From Pleurocapsaceae cyanobacterium CSU_1_1 (GTDB taxonomy: Bacteria; Cyanobacteriota; Cyanobacteriia; Cyanobacteriales; Xenococcaceae): 36,848 bases of DNA. The stretch spans positions 1 through 36,848 of the forward strand of contig JAAUOU010000042.1 in NCBI GenBank assembly GCA_012034765.1. The letters run 5' to 3'. Of the stretch, positions 335 through 18,553 are shown piece after piece. Under the pieces are notes generated by a model. The model worked only from the letters and a program-made list of their open reading frames with translations. It ran no database searches and was not told the DNA's origin. The position numbers and the translations under genes were made by a program. Each line of letters begins with the position of its first letter. Positions within the stretch are counted from its first letter, which is position 1.

Positions 335-1548
335 GTGAAATTACCCAATTATATAGACATAGCGATTATTGGTGCAGGAGTTCAGGCTCTGACTTTAACT
401 ACCCACCTGTTACAAAAAAGCGCGAAGCACTATCATAAATTCTTAGTTTTCGATCCCAGTCAGACTTGGCTGAGTCAATGGCAGCAACAATTTGCAGCAC
501 AACAAATTCCCTATTTGCGATCGCCGCCGTCCATCATCCCGATCCCAATCCCCATCAACTGAGAACCTTTGCTGAACATAGACATAACGAGTTATTTCCG
601 CCCTATGATAGACCAGGAACAAAGTTATTTAATGATTTCTGCGATGAGGTAATTCAACGCTGGAAGTTAGCAGATAAGGTTTATCCAGCTAAAGTAGTTC
701 AGGTTTTACCGATTAAATGTGCTTCTCGTTCTCGATTTCAATTAGTTTTAGATACAGGAGAAACGATCGTTGCTCGTAGGGTGGTATTAGCTACGGGAAG
801 TGGTAAAGTGCAGTTTCCTAATTGGGTAGAAACCATTACCTCAAATTACCCCGCAGATAGATTGTGTCATTCGCAACAGGTAAACTTAAACCGACTCAAT
901 TTAACGGGAGAGCATATTTTAATCGTTGGTGGTGGCTTAACTAGCGGACATTTAGCTAAAGGTGCGATCGCTTTGGGTGCGACTGTGACTCTAATGACGA
1001 GAAAACAGTTACAAGAAAAGATTTTTGATGCCGATCCTGGTTGGTTAGGACCAAAATATCTCAAAGACTTTCATGCCCAAACCGATTGGTCTGAGCGTTA
1101 CCAGCAAATACAGCAAGCCCGTAATGGTGGTTCATTGACTCCAGATATGATGCTGCAATTAAATCGAGCATCTTATGAAGGTAAATTAAGGATCGATGAA
1201 TGCTGTCAAGTTAGGGACGCACATTGGCAAGATAATCTCTGGAAGGTTGGTTGTCACGATGGAAGCAAACATCAGTTTAACCGTATCTGGTTAGCTACTG
1301 GCACGAGATTTAATGTTACCGAACATCCCTTATTACAAGACGTACTAAAGACTTATCCCACAGAAATAGTTAACGGTTTACCCATACTAGACGAACATTT
1401 ACGTCTGCCTAAATCTAACTTGTTTATTATGGGTGGTTTGGCTGCTTTGCAAATTGGCCCTGTAGCGAGAAATATCGGTGGTGGGAAAATGGCTTGTCAA
1501 CGTATCGTACCAGCAATTGTTAAACCTAGTTTGGCGATCGCCAAATAA
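335..1548 (+). CDS. FAD/NAD(P)-binding oxidoreductase, SidA/IucD-like (frameshifted)
   Basis: Two overlapping frames together make a protein of about 404 residues. The first frame (GTG at 335) carries the N-terminal dinucleotide-binding loop IIGAGVQALTLTTHL and ends at LRSP. The second continues AVHHPDPNPHQLRTFAE, a second nucleotide loop IVGGGLTSGHLAKGA, an ATG(T/S) motif (LATGTRF) and a C-terminal GPVARNIGGGKMA segment. The layout matches flavin-dependent proteins related to lysine/ornithine N-hydroxylases, usually annotated only as FAD/NAD(P)-binding; the substrate is unknown. The frame change falls at 524-526, directly after the HIP1 octamer at 517-524, and one extra base there restores the frame. 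The gene diverges from the Zur-type gene and shares the operator at 252-266. Its last 35 codons are duplicated as a fragment at 3051-3155. Confidence 0.7.
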
Positions 1549-13172: not shown

Positions 13173-13292
13173 CAACACAAGTCGTTAATCGCAATTGTCA
13201 ACCTAGTTAGTAATATAGTACTGATTGATGTAATAGTCAACAAATGACCAAATATTTAAAGTTTTTCATAATAAATAATGTTATGGTAAATA

Positions 13293-13310
13293 AAAGACCA
13301 ATCGGTCTTT
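13293..13310. promoter_or_regulatory. TetR operator, copy 1
   Basis: AAAGACCAATCGGTCTTT: 7-base arms AAAGACC/GGTCTTT around a 4-base centre. It ends 14 bases before the TetR start codon, where binding would block transcription, so the regulator is probably autorepressed. The GACC-N4-GGTC core is like operators known for NemR-type TetR repressors. Confidence 0.85.
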
Positions 13311-13324
13311 ATATTTAAACTTAG

Positions 13325-13915
13325 ATGTCCAAAGCACAGCAAACTAAAGCGCGTATAGTTCAACAAGCAGCAGAAGTGTTTAACCAGAAAGGATATGCAG
13401 GCTCTTCTGTTGCCGATATTATGCAGGCTACTGGATTAAAGAAAGGAGGGATTTACAACCATTTCAAAAGTAAGGATGAACTGGCTGTAGCTGCGTTTGA
13501 CTATGCAGTCAGTCTAATGAGTCAAAAAGTGTGGAGTGCCGTGAAAACTAAACGTAATGCGATTGAAAGACTACAGGCATTAGTATCCAGCTATTTAGCC
13601 TACATTGAAACGCCACCAATTGTCGGTGGATGCCCGATTTTGAATACAGCAATTGAAGCTGATGATACTGATTCACCATTACGCGATCGCGCGATCGCAG
13701 CTATTAATAATTGGCGTAATTTAATTGTGCGGATTATCAATAAGGGGATTAAAAAGGGAGAAATACCCGCAACCATAGAACCCGATACCGTCGCCACGAT
13801 TATTATCTGTAATATTGAAGGAGCAATTATGATGAGTCAGCTAGAAAAAAATCCTGTTCATTTAGAAAGAGCGATCGCTCATCTGCAAAAGTATATTCAG
13901 AATAGTCTGGCGTAG
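13325..13915 (+). CDS. TetR/AcrR family repressor with GGC motif
   Basis: 196 residues. The N-terminal helix-turn-helix is complete (VFNQKGYAGSSVADIMQATG then KKGGIYNHFKSKDEL). The C-terminal domain carries IVGGCPILNTAIEADD with Cys103. A Cys in this GGC-P-L-N position is used by some NemR-like regulators to sense electrophiles or oxidants, but the family as a whole also contains non-redox members. An identical-type operator lies before this gene and before the next gene, showing a local regulon. Downstream genes (thioesterase, membrane protein, patatin, glutathione transferases) run in the same direction. Confidence 0.85.
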   Translation: MSKAQQTKARIVQQAAEVFNQKGYAGSSVADIMQATGLKKGGIYNHFKSKDELAVAAFDYAVSLMSQKVWSAVKTKRNAIERLQALVSSYLAYIETPPIVGGCPILNTAIEADDTDSPLRDRAIAAINNWRNLIVRIINKGIKKGEIPATIEPDTVATIIICNIEGAIMMSQLEKNPVHLERAIAHLQKYIQNSLA

Positions 13916-13934
13916 AAACAATGATGATGAATTA

Positions 13935-14008
13935 GTAGGGGCGAATGCCCTAAAGAATTAGCTGAGTCTAACGACTTGCTACGCAATCGCGTCGCCGTTC
14001 GCCCCTAC
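13935..14008. repeat. palindromic interspersed element (GTAGGGGCGAA family), copy 1
   Basis: Starts with GTAGGGGCGAA (13935-13945) and ends with its perfect inverted copy TTCGCCCCTAC (13998-14008), enclosing 52 bases. Related elements lie at 15010-15055, 17049-17102 and 24361-24416. Confidence 0.8.
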
Positions 14009-14034
14009 ATAAAATTAAATTTTTTTGTCTTAAA

Positions 14035-14052
14035 AAAGACCAATCGGTCTGT
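14035..14052. promoter_or_regulatory. TetR operator, copy 2
   Basis: AAAGACCAATCGGTCTGT differs from copy 1 only at the second-last base. It lies 21 bases before the ATG of the thioesterase gene, so the repressor probably controls the following genes as well as itself. Confidence 0.85.
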
Positions 14053-14073
14053 AAACATAACTATTAATTGCCA

Positions 14074-14484
14074 ATGAAAGTAAAACCATTACAAATAAGC
14101 CTAGAATTACCAATAAAAACTTATGACATTGATTTTGCGGGAATTGTCAGCAATATTGTCTATATTCGCTGGTTAGAAGACTTACGACTAAAAATGTTCG
14201 AGTCTAATCTCCTGATCGAAAAGTTAATGTCAAAGGGATATTGTCCAACTGTTAACTCCACCCAAATTAAATACCAGAAAGCTTTACGGTTAGGCGATCG
14301 CCCTGTAGGTAAGATGTGGATGTCTCAATTGGGACGTTTACGCTGTACTGTACAAGCCGAAATTTATCTGGGACAAGAAATAGCTGCGATCGCTACTCAA
14401 GTGGGATTTTTTATGAGTTTAGAAACTATGCGCCCAATGGCTATGCCCGAAGAAATTAAAGATATTTACGCCGAATATAATTGA
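14074..14484 (+). CDS. acyl-CoA thioesterase, hotdog fold
   Basis: 136 residues from ATG 14074; a TTG two codons upstream is a less likely start. The motif YDIDFAGIVSNIVYIRWLED matches the catalytic helix region of 4-hydroxybenzoyl-CoA thioesterase-like hotdog proteins (D-x-x-G-x-V-x-N-x-x-Y-x-x-W-x-E). The substrate is unknown. First structural gene after TetR and directly behind operator copy 2. A hairpin follows the stop. Confidence 0.82.
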   Translation: MKVKPLQISLELPIKTYDIDFAGIVSNIVYIRWLEDLRLKMFESNLLIEKLMSKGYCPTVNSTQIKYQKALRLGDRPVGKMWMSQLGRLRCTVQAEIYLGQEIAAIATQVGFFMSLETMRPMAMPEEIKDIYAEYN

Positions 14485-14508
14485 TTGCAAGTGCTGCTTG
14501 CAATTTTT
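14484..14508 (+). terminator. hairpin plus T-run after the thioesterase gene
   Basis: ATTGCAAG (14484-14491) pairs with CTTGCAAT (14497-14504) and is followed by TTTT. A second, shorter hairpin with the same arms (GCAAG...CTTGC, 14538-14552) follows 30 bases later, just before the next gene. Together they may attenuate read-through into the rest of the cluster. Confidence 0.6.
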
Positions 14509-14580
14509 AGAGATAGTTGTTATTTTGAGGATAGAAAGCAAGTATTGCTTGCAAAATATTGATTATTTAAAGAGGAAAAC

Positions 14581-15009
14581 ATGAATTTATCTCTACAACT
14601 GTTATTTCATGGTGCAATTGTCTTGCTAATCGGTTCGTTATCTGGTATTCCCTATGGTTCAGCTATTACCAATAAAAAAGATGAAGAAGTAATACGGGCA
14701 TGGCGCGTAGCTCATTCAGGACTATCAATGGGTGGCACGACAATGATTGCTTTTGCTGCTGCGATTAATCAATTAGATATAAATGCGATCGTCTTATCAA
14801 TTTTAGTTTGGTCTTCTGTTATTTCTGGCTATGGATTTTGTCTTGCTTTACCTTATGGTGCTTGGGTTGGACATCGTGGGCTTTCTATTGGAAAAACCAT
14901 TGAAAATAAAATTGTTTACCTGGGAAACATGGTAGGTGCTACTGGATCGTTAGTTAGCACTTTGGCACTGATCTTTGGCTGTTTACAGTCGATGAATGTT
15001 GTTAGTTAA
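14581..15009 (+). CDS. four-helix membrane protein resembling styrene oxide isomerase
   Basis: 142 residues with four hydrophobic helices (LLFHGAIVLLIGSL; MGGTTMIAFAAAI; IVLSILVWSSVISGYGFCL; MVGATGSLVSTLALIFG). Motifs between helices are IPYGSAITNKKDE, AWRVAHSGLSMGG and GHRGLSIG. Recalled styrene oxide isomerase (StyC) has the same number of helices, a W-x-R-x-H-S-G motif whose His ligates heme b, and a later N-R-G-L-x-x-G motif. The match is from memory and short, so the assignment is tentative. The neighbouring glutathione transferases and TetR regulator fit an epoxide-handling role. A purine-rich AGAGGAAA precedes the ATG. Confidence 0.5.
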   Translation: MNLSLQLLFHGAIVLLIGSLSGIPYGSAITNKKDEEVIRAWRVAHSGLSMGGTTMIAFAAAINQLDINAIVLSILVWSSVISGYGFCLALPYGAWVGHRGLSIGKTIENKIVYLGNMVGATGSLVSTLALIFGCLQSMNVVS

Positions 15010-15055
15010 GTAGGGGCGAACGGCCGTTCGCCCTTACAATGCGAATCGCCCCTAC
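15010..15055. repeat. palindromic interspersed element (GTAGGGGCGAA family), copy 2
   Basis: GTAGGGGCGAA at 15010-15020 and ATCGCCCCTAC at 15045-15055, with a nested palindrome GGCGAACGGCCGTTCGCC. It fills the gap between the isomerase-like gene and the patatin gene. Confidence 0.8.
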
Positions 15056-15106
15056 GGGGTTTATGTGTCCCAATCTTTGAAGTTAATTAATAATCAGGAT
15101 GTATAT

Positions 15107-15964
15107 ATGTTGAACATTAACAATCCAGTAGCGATCGCCTGTGCATCAGGTGGTTTTAAGACAATATTTATTCATGGTGTATTGAGTGCTTTGGAAGAGG
15201 CGAATATCAAGGCAGATGCCTATGCTTCCGCTTCAGGTTCGGTAATTCCTAGTGCTTGGGCAGCTATTAGTAAAGCGAGAGAGTCGGGGATGAAATATTG
15301 GTTGGAAGGTTTAAAGATTTATCACCAGACTAAAAGTATGAGACAGGTATGCCAGGGCGGAATCTCTTACTTTAATACTGGAGGTGGTCAACAACTTTTT
15401 GAACCAAATCAGCCAGATTTCTATATTGCTACCAGTGCGGTAACTAGTAAAGAGGCTGCTGAACAAACTCAAGGCAAACAAGCCAGAAGATTAGGTAAAA
15501 AACTTTTAGTATCGTCTGCACACAAAGATCGCAGTTGGGTAGACGAACATTTAAAACTTGCTCTTTTTAGTCGTGGCAGAAATGATCATTTAGTTCTTAA
15601 TCAAAACAATTTTCACGAGGTTGCTTATGCTTCTAGTAGAATGCTGCATAACTATGATATGCCAGCATGGATTAATAACCAGCCTTATATAGATGCTTCT
15701 TATACCTGCGTTTGTCCTGCATTGGAAATGGTGGAACAAGGATATCAAACAGTAATTGCGATCGCCACTGAAGCGGGTAACTTTTATCGAGATTTATTCC
15801 AGTCGCAAGTTATTCCTACACAGTACCAACAAGTTCCAATACGCATAATTCAGCCAGATATAAATCCCAAGGATATGGGTGTAGATGTTTTCCAAGCTAC
15901 GCCCGAAGGATTAGCTGCTGTTTATCAACATGGTTTAGATAAAGGCAGAGAGTTTTTAGCGTAA
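15107..15964 (+). CDS. patatin-like phospholipase
   Basis: 285 residues from ATG 15107, which has AGGA about 8 bases upstream; an in-frame GTG at 15065 would add 14 residues that do not look conserved. The patatin features are an oxyanion-hole strand (CASGGFKTIFIHGVL), the nucleophile elbow SASGS (Gly-x-Ser-x-Gly-like, with ASASGSVIPS), and the dyad Asp in YIDASYT replacing the usual D-G-G/A. Such enzymes cleave acyl esters of lipids; the substrate is unknown. Part of the TetR-controlled cluster and followed by a strong ribosome binding site for the next gene. Confidence 0.78.
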   Translation: MLNINNPVAIACASGGFKTIFIHGVLSALEEANIKADAYASASGSVIPSAWAAISKARESGMKYWLEGLKIYHQTKSMRQVCQGGISYFNTGGGQQLFEPNQPDFYIATSAVTSKEAAEQTQGKQARRLGKKLLVSSAHKDRSWVDEHLKLALFSRGRNDHLVLNQNNFHEVAYASSRMLHNYDMPAWINNQPYIDASYTCVCPALEMVEQGYQTVIAIATEAGNFYRDLFQSQVIPTQYQQVPIRIIQPDINPKDMGVDVFQATPEGLAAVYQHGLDKGREFLA

Positions 15965-15992
15965 CTAAATAATTAGGATGGAGGATTTAACT

Positions 15993-16284
15993 ATGAAAAT
16001 AAACTCACTATATGTTTCTGTAAAAGATCGCGATCGCATTTATAAGTTACTGGCTTTATAGCAAACAAGTATATTGGTTAAGTTATTTCCTATTAGGTCT
16101 TTATGCTGGTACGGGTTTATCTAGTCCAGCCCATTATTTTTATGGTGAACTGTCTCGGTTTTCTCTGAAAATGCACGTTCTAATTTGGACTGATGTAATT
16201 GCTGGTTTATCGGTAGTCGCATTTATAACTTGGTCACTATTGATTGCTCAAGAATGGCGTAAAACTGAGGATATACAAAAATGA
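15993..16284 (+). CDS. small membrane protein (frameshifted)
   Basis: A strong Shine-Dalgarno GGAGGA (15980-15985) lies 7 bases before ATG 15993, which marks a real start. The first frame gives MKINSLYVSVKDRDRIYKLL and stops at a TAG at 16059-16061. Another frame then continues YSKQVYWLSYFLLGLYAGTG, PAHYFYGELSRFSLKMHV and a second membrane helix, ending with a TGA that overlaps the next start codon. The two parts probably made one protein of about 96 residues with two membrane helices. Restoring the frame needs two extra bases or removal of one, so it differs from the other breaks. The family is not recognised; a DUF2834-like layout is possible. Confidence 0.55.
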
Positions 16285-17045
16285 ATACAGCAAACAAAAA
16301 TACACCTTTACTAATAACAATTGCTACCAGTCACTACTGCGAAAAAGTTCGCTGGGCATTAGACAGCTTAGGGGTAGATTATGTCGAAGAAAACCACGCA
16401 CCTCCGTTTCATAGACAATATACATCCCGTTATGGAGGCACAAGCGTACCTGTTTTAGTAGTCAATGACAAGGCATTCACTGATTCTCAAGATATTTTGC
16501 ATTACCTAGATACTATTGCTTTTGATCGACAGCTTTATCCCCAAGATCCAGAATTACGCCGTCAAGCAGAAACCTTAGAAAAATTATTTGATGACAAATT
16601 AGGAGTAGCAACGCGCAATTGGGCTTATTACTATGCTATCCAACAACCTTGGACAATTCTAGCTGCTTGGAGTAAGGGAATAAGCTGGATGGAGAAAATT
16701 AAATGTGCGATCGCTTTTCCTGTAGCAACTAAGATAATCAAACAAAAATACAACTTAACTCCCGACGGTAAAGAAGTGGCTGTACAAGATATTAGAGAAG
16801 TTTTCACTGTAGTTAACCAAAGACTAAATTCAGGTCAACAATATTTGGTGGGAAATAATTTATCCTCGGCAGACATTACCTTTGCTGCTTTAGCTTCTTT
16901 TGTAATCCGTCCTGAATATCATCCTGTTTATAACTCTCAACTATCAAAACTACCAGCAGAAATGGTTGTGGTAATTAATGAGTTACGGGAAACACCAGCG
17001 GGTGAATTAGTTATGCGTATGTATCGAGAACATAGACCAAAGTAG
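16281..17045 (+). CDS. glutathione S-transferase-like protein
   Basis: 254 residues. The thioredoxin-like N-domain shows ITIATSHYCEKVRWALDSLG, GGTSVPVLVV (the cis-Pro loop) and FTDSQDILHYLD (the Glu/Gln-Asp/Ser-Ser glutathione contact). The helical C-domain includes YLVGNNLSSADITFAALASF, the usual N-capping D-x-T motif. The start overlaps the stop of the preceding membrane gene, indicating translational coupling. SHYCEKVRW has Ser/Cys at the position where catalytic Ser/Cys occurs in several GST classes. Substrate unknown. Confidence 0.82.
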   Translation: MNTANKNTPLLITIATSHYCEKVRWALDSLGVDYVEENHAPPFHRQYTSRYGGTSVPVLVVNDKAFTDSQDILHYLDTIAFDRQLYPQDPELRRQAETLEKLFDDKLGVATRNWAYYYAIQQPWTILAAWSKGISWMEKIKCAIAFPVATKIIKQKYNLTPDGKEVAVQDIREVFTVVNQRLNSGQQYLVGNNLSSADITFAALASFVIRPEYHPVYNSQLSKLPAEMVVVINELRETPAGELVMRMYREHRPK

Positions 17046-17048
17046 AAA

Positions 17049-17102
17049 GTAGGGGCGATTCGCCCTAAAGGACTAGCTTCGCATATCGCGATTCGCCCCT
17101 AC
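17049..17102. repeat. palindromic interspersed element (GTAGGGGCGAA family), copy 3
   Basis: GTAGGGGCGATTCGCCC at the left end and ATTCGCCCCTAC (17091-17102) at the right end. It fills the space between the two GST genes. Confidence 0.8.
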
Positions 17103-17129
17103 AGTAATCAGAAATCATTAATTAAAATC

Positions 17130-17800
17130 ATGTTGCAATTTTATTACAATCCCCTATCTCCCTTATCCCGTCGTGTTTGGATTGCTTTGTTAGAAAAAGA
17201 AATTCCGTTTACACCGATAATTGTCAATCTCAAAGAAGGAGAACAGTTTAAGCGAGACTTTTTGGCGATTAATCCCTTTCATCATGTCCCAGTAATTGTT
17301 GATGATGGTTTGCGAGTTTTAGAATCTCTGGCAATTTTAGATTATTTAGAATGCAAGTGTCCTCGAAATCAATTGCTGCCAAAAGATCCATACCAGCTAG
17401 CTAAAGTTAAAATGGCGCAAATGGTAGCCAATAATGAATTATCTGCTTTAGTGATTCCGTTAATCAGCGAAACAGCAGAATCACCGAAATTAAAACGAGC
17501 AAAACGCAAAATTACTAGAATATTGAATTTTTTAGCTGAATTATTAGCTGATGATGCTTATTTTGGTGGAGAAAGTCTATCTTTAGGCGATATCGTATTA
17601 GGAAATGCTGTGATTCTAGTTGGTAAATTAGGCTACGATCTTAATCAAATTGAGCAAATTGAGAAGTGGCGCGATCGCTGATGCAAAGACAAGTATGGCA
17701 GCAAACTCAACCTAATGATGAACAAGTAGCCATATTTAAACAAACAGTACAAAAATTAATTGAATCCCAAGGCCAAACGCAGATTATTAGTAAGATATAA
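17130..17800 (+). CDS. second glutathione S-transferase-like protein (frameshifted near the end)
   Basis: The first frame (ATG 17130) gives a thioredoxin-like N-domain (YYNPLSPLSRRVWIALLEKE; HHVPVIVDDG; VLESLAILDYLE) and most of the helical domain (GGESLSLGDIVLGNAV), then stops at WRDR. The stop is created directly after the HIP1 octamer at 17671-17678. One extra C would read RDRLMQRQVWQQTQP and continue about 38 more residues to TAA at 17798, which completes a normal C-terminus of about 223 residues in total. It shares the cluster with the first GST. The truncated form would lack only the last helices. Confidence 0.78.
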
Positions 17801-17879: not shown

Positions 17880-17922
17880 AAACCAAACCTAATGGTAGTA
17901 AACTTTAAGAAAAGTTTGGTTT
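17880..17922 (+). terminator. possible terminator of the GST cluster
   Basis: AAACCAAAC (17880-17888) pairs with GTTTGGTTT (17914-17922), with an inner AAACTTT/AAAGTTT pairing and T-rich 3' side. It overlaps the 3' end of the convergent vapC gene, so it may serve both strands. Confidence 0.4.
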
Positions 17923-18303
17923 TATGACTTTACAGTCTGTGAGATTATTAGTCTTTTTGATAAACTTCTCATCAAAAGTGAATAGTTTAGAACAATGTTG
18001 ACCTTGTGCTAAATGAAAAGCATCTGCAAAATCTAAACCATTCTCATGCCATTGAAGTATTTGAGCAATTAAATTAGCATTAGCAAGATGAATATTAGGT
18101 AAACCAAATAATTTTCTTAAAGCCAGACAAATTTCTGTTGGGTTGAATTTATAGGCAAATCGCAAAACCCATTCGGTTTCGAGAATTACTGTATTGCTTA
18201 TAAATACATCTTGTGACTGTAAAATTGCCAAACTTTGTTGATATTGCCATTGATCATCTTGAGTCAATAGTCGAACAATAATATTAGTGTCAATTGTTAC
18301 CAT
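17905..18303 (-). CDS. vapC: PIN-domain toxin, VapC family
   Basis: 132 residues. The PIN-domain acidic residues are present: Asp5 in TIDTNIIVRLL, a Glu in ILETEWVLR, and the C-terminal DFADAFHLAQ and FTFDEKF motifs. PIN toxins are Mg-dependent ribonucleases that cut tRNA or rRNA. The gene overlaps its antitoxin by 14 bases, the usual antitoxin-first arrangement. Confidence 0.88.
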   Translation of the reverse strand: MVTIDTNIIVRLLTQDDQWQYQQSLAILQSQDVFISNTVILETEWVLRFAYKFNPTEICLALRKLFGLPNIHLANANLIAQILQWHENGLDFADAFHLAQGQHCSKLFTFDEKFIKKTNNLTDCKVIKPNFS

Positions 18304-18553
18304 TGACCAATTCCTCTAATCCCTGACGAATGGCATCTTCCATATCTTCAAGACTTTTAGGAGTTCCTTGATATTTTAAGCATCCTGCTACTTGATCTAA
18401 TGTTGTTTCTGCAAAAGGTTTTTTGGGTTTTAAAAGAATTCCATCTCCCATATCGATCGCGATTAATTCTTGTCCTTCTTCCCAGTGATGCATTTCTCGT
18501 AAAGCTTTGGGGATAATGACTTGACCTTTACTTGACATTTTTGTGATTTTCAT
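18290..18553 (-). CDS. AbrB/SpoVT-type antitoxin (VapB-like)
   Basis: 87 residues. The N-terminus MKITKMSSKGQVIIPKALRE is a textbook swapped-hairpin AbrB domain, and ILLKPKKPF closes it. The acidic C-terminal helix (KSLEDMEDAIRQGLEELV) would wrap the toxin. The pair probably autoregulates its own promoter. The gene lies immediately upstream of the toxin. Confidence 0.88.
   Translation of the reverse strand: MKITKMSSKGQVIIPKALREMHHWEEGQELIAIDMGDGILLKPKKPFAETTLDQVAGCLKYQGTPKSLEDMEDAIRQGLEELVNGNN

Follow-up and report, generated by a model that had tools for sequence, protein, structure and literature searches.

In the light, cyanobacteria produce reactive carbonyls and oxidants. Their glutathione S-transferases (GSTs) have been investigated one enzyme at a time. 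Two of the closest described systems to the locus treated here are controlled by TetR-type repressors with a sensing cysteine. In Escherichia coli NemR, Cys106 serves in the sensing of hypochlorous acid (HOCl), Cys21 and Cys116 have been proposed for electrophiles, and the glyoxalase gene gloA gains expression by read-through from nemRA (accessible parts of PMC3739934; PMC8748444). AltR of Pantoea ananatis is a NemR-related TetR protein that represses its own gene via an inverted repeat, has further boxes in the alt cluster and depends on one conserved cysteine, Cys100, which is essential for the response to thiosulfinates (accessible part of PMC13178969). On the side of the enzymes, the chi-class GST Sll0067 of Synechocystis is a comparable case of a cyanobacterial GST that feeds methylglyoxal into glutathione chemistry and the glyoxalase route, and the words TetR, operon and regulator are absent from the available main text of that paper (PMC7407080). 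Here we describe a locus at positions 13293-17800 of a 36,848-nucleotide stretch of DNA from the Pleurocapsaceae cyanobacterium CSU_1_1 (contig JAAUOU010000042.1; this whole stretch is called the window), in which a tetR gene is flanked by two copies of one operator and followed by a thioesterase gene, several accessory genes and two GST-type genes.

A preliminary description, made from the letters of the window, had listed the repeated operator and the downstream gene set; both are confirmed, with corrections to the length of the operator and to two genes. All elements are arranged on the plus strand in the order given below, and the counts refer to 35 orthologous loci, 12 from genomes of the same genus and 23 from other cyanobacteria.

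13295-13308, no strand: operator copy 1, AGACCNNNNGGTCT, beginning 30 nt ahead of the tetR ATG; in 28 of 35 loci a site with no more than one mismatch is found at -21 to -34 from tetR
13325-13915, plus strand: TetR-family regulator (TetR_C_13) with Cys103 in a GGCP motif; ortholog in 12 of 13 genomes of the genus
14037-14050, no strand: operator copy 2, ahead of the first structural gene, 37 nt before the thioesterase gene
14074-14484, plus strand: 4HBT_2 hotdog thioesterase (E-value 2e-16), core gene; 24 of 35 loci, one partial
14581-15009, plus strand: membrane protein distantly related to styrene oxide isomerase (SOI), with H45 and R99 conserved and four network residues replaced
15107-15964, plus strand: divergent patatin-like protein; no variation at Ser43 and Asp196 among 7 aligned sequences
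15994-16038, plus strand: remnant of a gene of the VOC/glyoxalase superfamily, first 15 codons; positions 15989-16037 share 92% identity with the intact gene at locus L036
16036-16284, plus strand: small membrane protein gene, represented by its 3' part only; the stop overlaps with the GST1 start
16281-17045, plus strand: GST-type protein 1 (GST1, GST_N_3); 12 of 35 loci, remnants counted
17130-17681, plus strand: GST-type protein 2 (GST2), core gene, truncated by a frameshift that lies next to a GCGATCGC site; present in 24 of 35 loci if remnants are included

Two operators and a conserved core of genes

Both copies of the operator read AGACCAATCGGTCT. An 18-base operator had been proposed; the two copies and their positions before tetR and before the next gene stand, and the identical stretch measures 17 nt (13292-13308 and 14034-14050). 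Among 5,000 first-order Markov resamples of both intergenic regions no shared word exceeded 16 nt, and this length was reached once. If up to two mismatches are allowed, the window contains six operator matches (three places, both strands) versus a mean of 0.43 in shuffled sequences. The genome holds no further exact copy of AGACCNATCGGTCT and one more copy of the looser AGACCNNNNGGTCT. A one-mismatch site on the minus strand (AGACCAATCGGTTT, window 1079-1092) lies within an oxidoreductase-like open reading frame (ORF) and is probably due to chance.

To compare the loci, sites with at most one mismatch to AGACCNNNNGGTCT were searched up to 250 nt upstream of tetR and around and behind its end, and every one of the 70 regions was shuffled 50 times by mononucleotides to give 3,500 control regions. 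Such a site was present upstream of tetR in 31 of the 35 loci and downstream in 31, versus 27 of the 3,500 shuffled regions; exact sites occurred in 17 upstream and 19 downstream regions. From the conserved operators we assume repression at both places: a TetR dimer would bind the AGACCNNNNGGTCT sites that precede tetR and the genes downstream of it, and thereby shut both. Across the 13 genomes of the genus the exact motif occurs 29 times, and 19 of these copies are situated at the tetR locus; therefore, regulation by this TetR looks local. The motif is rare and not enriched genome-wide, because the reversed control pattern occurs 88 times in the same genomes. A wider regulon was considered and rejected on the sequences of the sites: the ten exact sites outside the locus, around which the genes were not looked at, all differ in their centre.

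Orthologs of the regulator are encoded in 12 of the 13 genomes of the genus (76-100% identity), and the thirteenth, which is 81% complete, contains a distant TetR match only. In a phylum-wide sample of 386 genomes (E-value at most 1e-30; eight candidates scored per genome, which makes absences soft) 25 genomes gave a match; two of these belong to the genus, and in the remaining 23 the identity is 50-61%. The neighbourhoods of all 12 genus loci and all 23 outside loci were compared, and a thioesterase and/or a GST gene follows tetR in every one of them, remnants counted, with part of a thioesterase as the sole downstream enzyme in L093. In detail, the thioesterase is found in 24 of the 35 loci and GST1 or GST2 in 29, again including remnants. 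Starting from the thioesterase gives a similar picture: 15 of its 20 close relatives in the 386 genomes (E-value at most 1e-30) are located within 0.6 kb of a TetR ortholog. Co-occurrence of these families with the operator is thus conserved, and the operator is not confined to sites before unrelated genes. The two operators, the cysteine of the regulator and the linkage to thioesterase and GST are conserved.

The core of the locus is therefore TetR together with a hotdog thioesterase and/or a GST, and the patatin-like, membrane and SOI-like genes are accessories. The six genes of the proposed set form a small core plus variable accessories and no fixed set. Already within the genus the gene content varies around one regulator, and some loci are devoid of the patatin-like gene, the small membrane protein or GST1. 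The thioesterase clearly exceeds its Pfam cut-off (4HBT_2, 61 versus 25.5 bits); an additional thioesterase-like gene is present in L031 and in L035, of which the L031 copy matches YiiD_C and the L035 copy is 72% identical to it. Furthermore, a scan of genome contigs with two narrow peptides returned one locus, from Pleurocapsa sp. CCALA 161, and a scan of viral sequences returned none. Among the matches listed from the open-access literature (titles and beginnings of abstracts, with few subscription papers covered) no description of the operon was found, and a word search in the accessible text of papers on cyanobacterial GSTs revealed no TetR regulator (PMC9599700, PMC7286025, PMC7407080, PMC11673678, PMC10295655).

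The regulator and its possible signal

The regulator contains both TetR_N (E-value 2e-14) and TetR_C_13 (2e-34) domains. The cysteine noticed earlier in a GGC-P motif is Cys103; it is kept in all 35 orthologs and aligns with Cys106 of NemR. A cysteine is found at this position also in the solved structures 3qbm, 3eup and 2hyj, but not in CprB or AvaR1. The suggested likeness to NemR extends to the DNA, as half-sites and spacing match those before E. coli nemR, where AGACCGACTGGTCT begins 29 nt before the ATG, compared with 30 nt in the window. Chance alone would give a mean of 1.35 matches with up to two mismatches in 6 kb; the E. coli nemR site is exact and located at the same distance.

The locus shares with nemR-nemA-gloA a tetR-type gene whose start is preceded, at about 30 nt, by a AGACCNNNNGGTCT site, a cysteine at the same aligned place and a VOC-superfamily enzyme in the set, present as a remnant in the window and intact in L036. 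In E. coli, gloA, which we take to be a member of the VOC superfamily, lies behind nemRA. In contrast, the two regulators are only 18% identical (E-value 1e-12 for the pair), the E. coli stretch has one operator whereas here a second one precedes the structural genes, and GST and thioesterase form the core. A NemA-type reductase was not recognised at the loci, where other ORFs were not scanned for one. AltR differs by its operator sequence, its thiosulfinate inducer and its gene set. Judged from the sequences, the regulator resembles NemR and AltR in anatomy, and the likeness is claimed for anatomy and not for descent.

We assume that the locus is probably an autorepressed, cysteine-gated operon for the response to electrophiles or oxidants, which works like nemR-nemA-gloA with glutathione-type enzymes. 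By analogy to Cys106 of NemR and Cys100 of AltR, a reactive electrophile or oxidant would modify Cys103, the repressor would let go and the glutathione-type enzymes would be made. The core GST might then conjugate the compound to glutathione, the thioesterase might hydrolyse an acyl or glutathione thioester formed downstream, and lineage-specific accessories (VOC protein, second GST, patatin-like, small membrane and SOI-like proteins) might widen the response to lipid or membrane damage. If so, the conserved repressor, the defined operator and the candidate sensor cysteine would provide a handle on electrophile sensing in some cyanobacteria. The recurrent pair of GST and thioesterase suggests a thioester step, and the pair of operator and repressor could be used for a reporter.

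Several observations weigh against this cysteine-gated operon. Apart from the low identity to NemR, the regulator has no counterpart of Cys21 or Cys116, its cysteines being Cys103 and Cys162. Among 109 solved-structure matches NemR (4yze, E-value 8e-9) ranks 31st, behind ligand-type regulators that include CprB, AvaR1 and bacillar FadR, and the NCBIfam matches, all below their cut-offs, are headed by ScbR and AcuR (ScbR 104 of 150 bits, AcuR 68 of 247, MtrR 66 of 280, bacillar FadR 64 of 200). The thioesterase is absent in 11 of the 35 loci, including L032, which is cut by a contig end, and a GST is absent in 6 of the 23 outside loci. Five of the 20 close thioesterase relatives are not situated beside a TetR ortholog; in the 6-7 kb surveyed around them neither a TetR ortholog nor an exact operator was found, and behind one of the five lies a GST1 fragment. 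If a single mismatch is tolerated, the operator is missing upstream in four loci and downstream in four, and L082 has neither. Finally, two genes of the window look broken, the composite of VOC remnant and small membrane protein and GST2.

Because of the 18% identity to NemR, the better structural ranks of ligand-type regulators and the ScbR and AcuR matches, it is possible, if rather unlikely, that the signal of the TetR is a ligand bound non-covalently, for instance an acyl-CoA, an acrylate-like acid or another small hydrophobic molecule, that the operon handles acyl thioesters and that Cys103 has a structural role in the GGCP loop. The frequent thioesterase and the occasional patatin-like gene would fit such an operon, as would the cysteine of 3qbm, 3eup and 2hyj. 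This is opposed by the GST genes or remnants in 29 of 35 loci, by operator half-sites that match those of nemR, by the alignment of Cys103 with the cysteine of NemR and by the fact that CprB and AvaR1, two of the ligand-type regulators, do not have this residue.

Accessory genes and neighbouring elements

The SOI-like protein matches the StyC model NF045734 with an E-value of 4e-5, and the scores of such proteins are 21.5-23.6 bits (23.6 for the window), far below the cut-off of 150. No match above this cut-off was detected in the 386 cyanobacterial genomes, in which, besides the window, the SOI-like protein itself found one weak match with two stops (E-value 9.8e-4, G171). A protein from a Mycolicibacterium plasmid is 35% identical over 119 residues; its gene cluster (L094, 4158-7448) encodes a DUF4345 protein, a flavin amine oxidase, the SOI-like protein, a hypothetical protein and a TetR of another type. 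Searches of solved structures with one or with four SOI-like sequences found no SOI, and after addition of the Mycolicibacterium relative the five-sequence profile gave 8pnu, an SOI, as sole match at an E-value of at most 10 (0.067). In this gap-free alignment of weak score, in which the chain numbering of 8pnu is 14 above that of the paper, H45 corresponds to the haem ligand H58 and R99 to R112 at the same spacing. In Rhodococcus SOI the haem is ligated by H57, and R111 may bind a propionate (available part of PMC12502698). In contrast, N64, D95, N99 and Y103 of SOI are replaced by G51, S82, F86 and L90, and in SOI the exchanges N99A and Y103A abolish activity, while N64A and D95A impair it (PMC11374702). 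Tyr84 or Tyr92, near the replaced residues, could take over a role. The protein thus shares with StyC its membrane location, a similar length and the pair of His and Arg, and differs in the active-site network and in a score far under the family cut-off. As the haem-ligand His and the Arg are kept and four network residues are replaced, it may bind haem and should not be called an epoxide isomerase. Its predicted structure reached a predicted local distance difference test score (pLDDT) of 41 only.

The preliminary description had seen in isomerase plus GST the logic of epoxide clearance, with the SOI-like protein isomerising epoxides and the GSTs conjugating the rest. We regard this as very unlikely. 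Remote homology to StyC and the His and Arg at the same spacing (PMC11374702; accessible part of PMC12502698) speak for it; the residues that SOI needs are missing, and the gene is restricted to 4 of the 13 genomes of the genus and 0 of the 23 outside loci, that is 4 of 35 loci, so that identity as an epoxide isomerase was rejected.

The patatin-like gene was detected in four of 384 other genomes, always within 1.6 kb downstream of a TetR ortholog (two intact genes, two fragments). The window protein has no Pfam patatin match at an E-value of 0.01 (0.14 once the limit is raised), and Patatin remains sub-threshold in four of seven patatin-like sequences. Ser43 and Asp196, assigned as the Ser-Asp dyad by reading motifs, are invariant in all seven, but the GxSxG elbow is not preserved, both glycines being replaced (S41-A-S43-G-S45). 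Its model has a pLDDT of 63.7; the best Foldseek matches include CapE, PlpD, iPLA2-beta and CapV, none with an E-value of 0.001 or lower, and a profile search against solved structures returned a ribosomal protein only (0.036).

The supposed small membrane protein of the window is not a whole gene: only its 3' part (16036-16284) is present, and the apparent start (15994 onwards) belongs to the VOC/glyoxalase-like remnant. The two parts join at a shared GATCGC within a GCGATCGC site, presumably a HIP1 site. Members of the family are found at L011 (7965-8372), L012, L013, L035, L036 and L081, and in these six relatives the protein comprises 136-149 residues. It has no Pfam or NCBIfam match (L011 and L081 searched) and no relation to the SOI-like profile (1% probability). 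All six proteins of the alignment have His22, His87 and His101 (L011 numbering), a possible metal or haem site. The VOC gene is partial in L011, and the junction between GST1 and VOC there is, like window 15994-16284, a gene fusion or deletion at short shared words.

The second GST is frameshifted at about position 17679 in comparison with two relatives, adjoining another GCGATCGC site. This frameshift and the VOC/membrane protein join may be genuine or may be assembly errors. Unlike Sll0067, the L036 GST2 has its best solved matches among delta and zeta types, and 8aib, which we assume to be a chi-class GST, scores lower (E-value 1.6e-12).

A more far-reaching, speculative and rather improbable version of the cysteine-gated operon would be a self-contained glutathione-thioester route for reactive carbonyls or oxidised lipids, all under this one repressor. 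In such a route the patatin would release acyl chains that have been damaged. Within the membrane these would be the substrates of the SOI-like haem protein and the small membrane protein as its partner, in a reaction that is not styrene oxide isomerisation. GST and VOC protein would make and rearrange glutathione adducts, and the hotdog thioesterase would perform a glyoxalase-II-like hydrolysis. That generic stress genes merely hitch-hike near a TetR by chance and without common control might be suspected from the variable and often decaying accessory genes, but is highly improbable given operators flanking tetR far above the shuffles, a thioesterase or GST in all 35 loci (remnants counted) and 15 of 20 close thioesterase relatives adjoining a TetR ortholog.

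A scan for sigma-70 promoters gave two sites versus 2.7 in shuffled sequences. Between the genes dispersed palindromic repeats (GTAGGGGCGA...TCGCCCCTAC and related) are found at 13936-14012, 15010-15055 and 17049-17102; the strict form occurs in 17 copies in the genome, the reversed control in none. Behind the locus, on the minus strand at 17905-18553, two short ORFs resemble, by reading of their translations, a pair of PIN toxin and AbrB-type antitoxin, and the first of them is 91% identical in L011.

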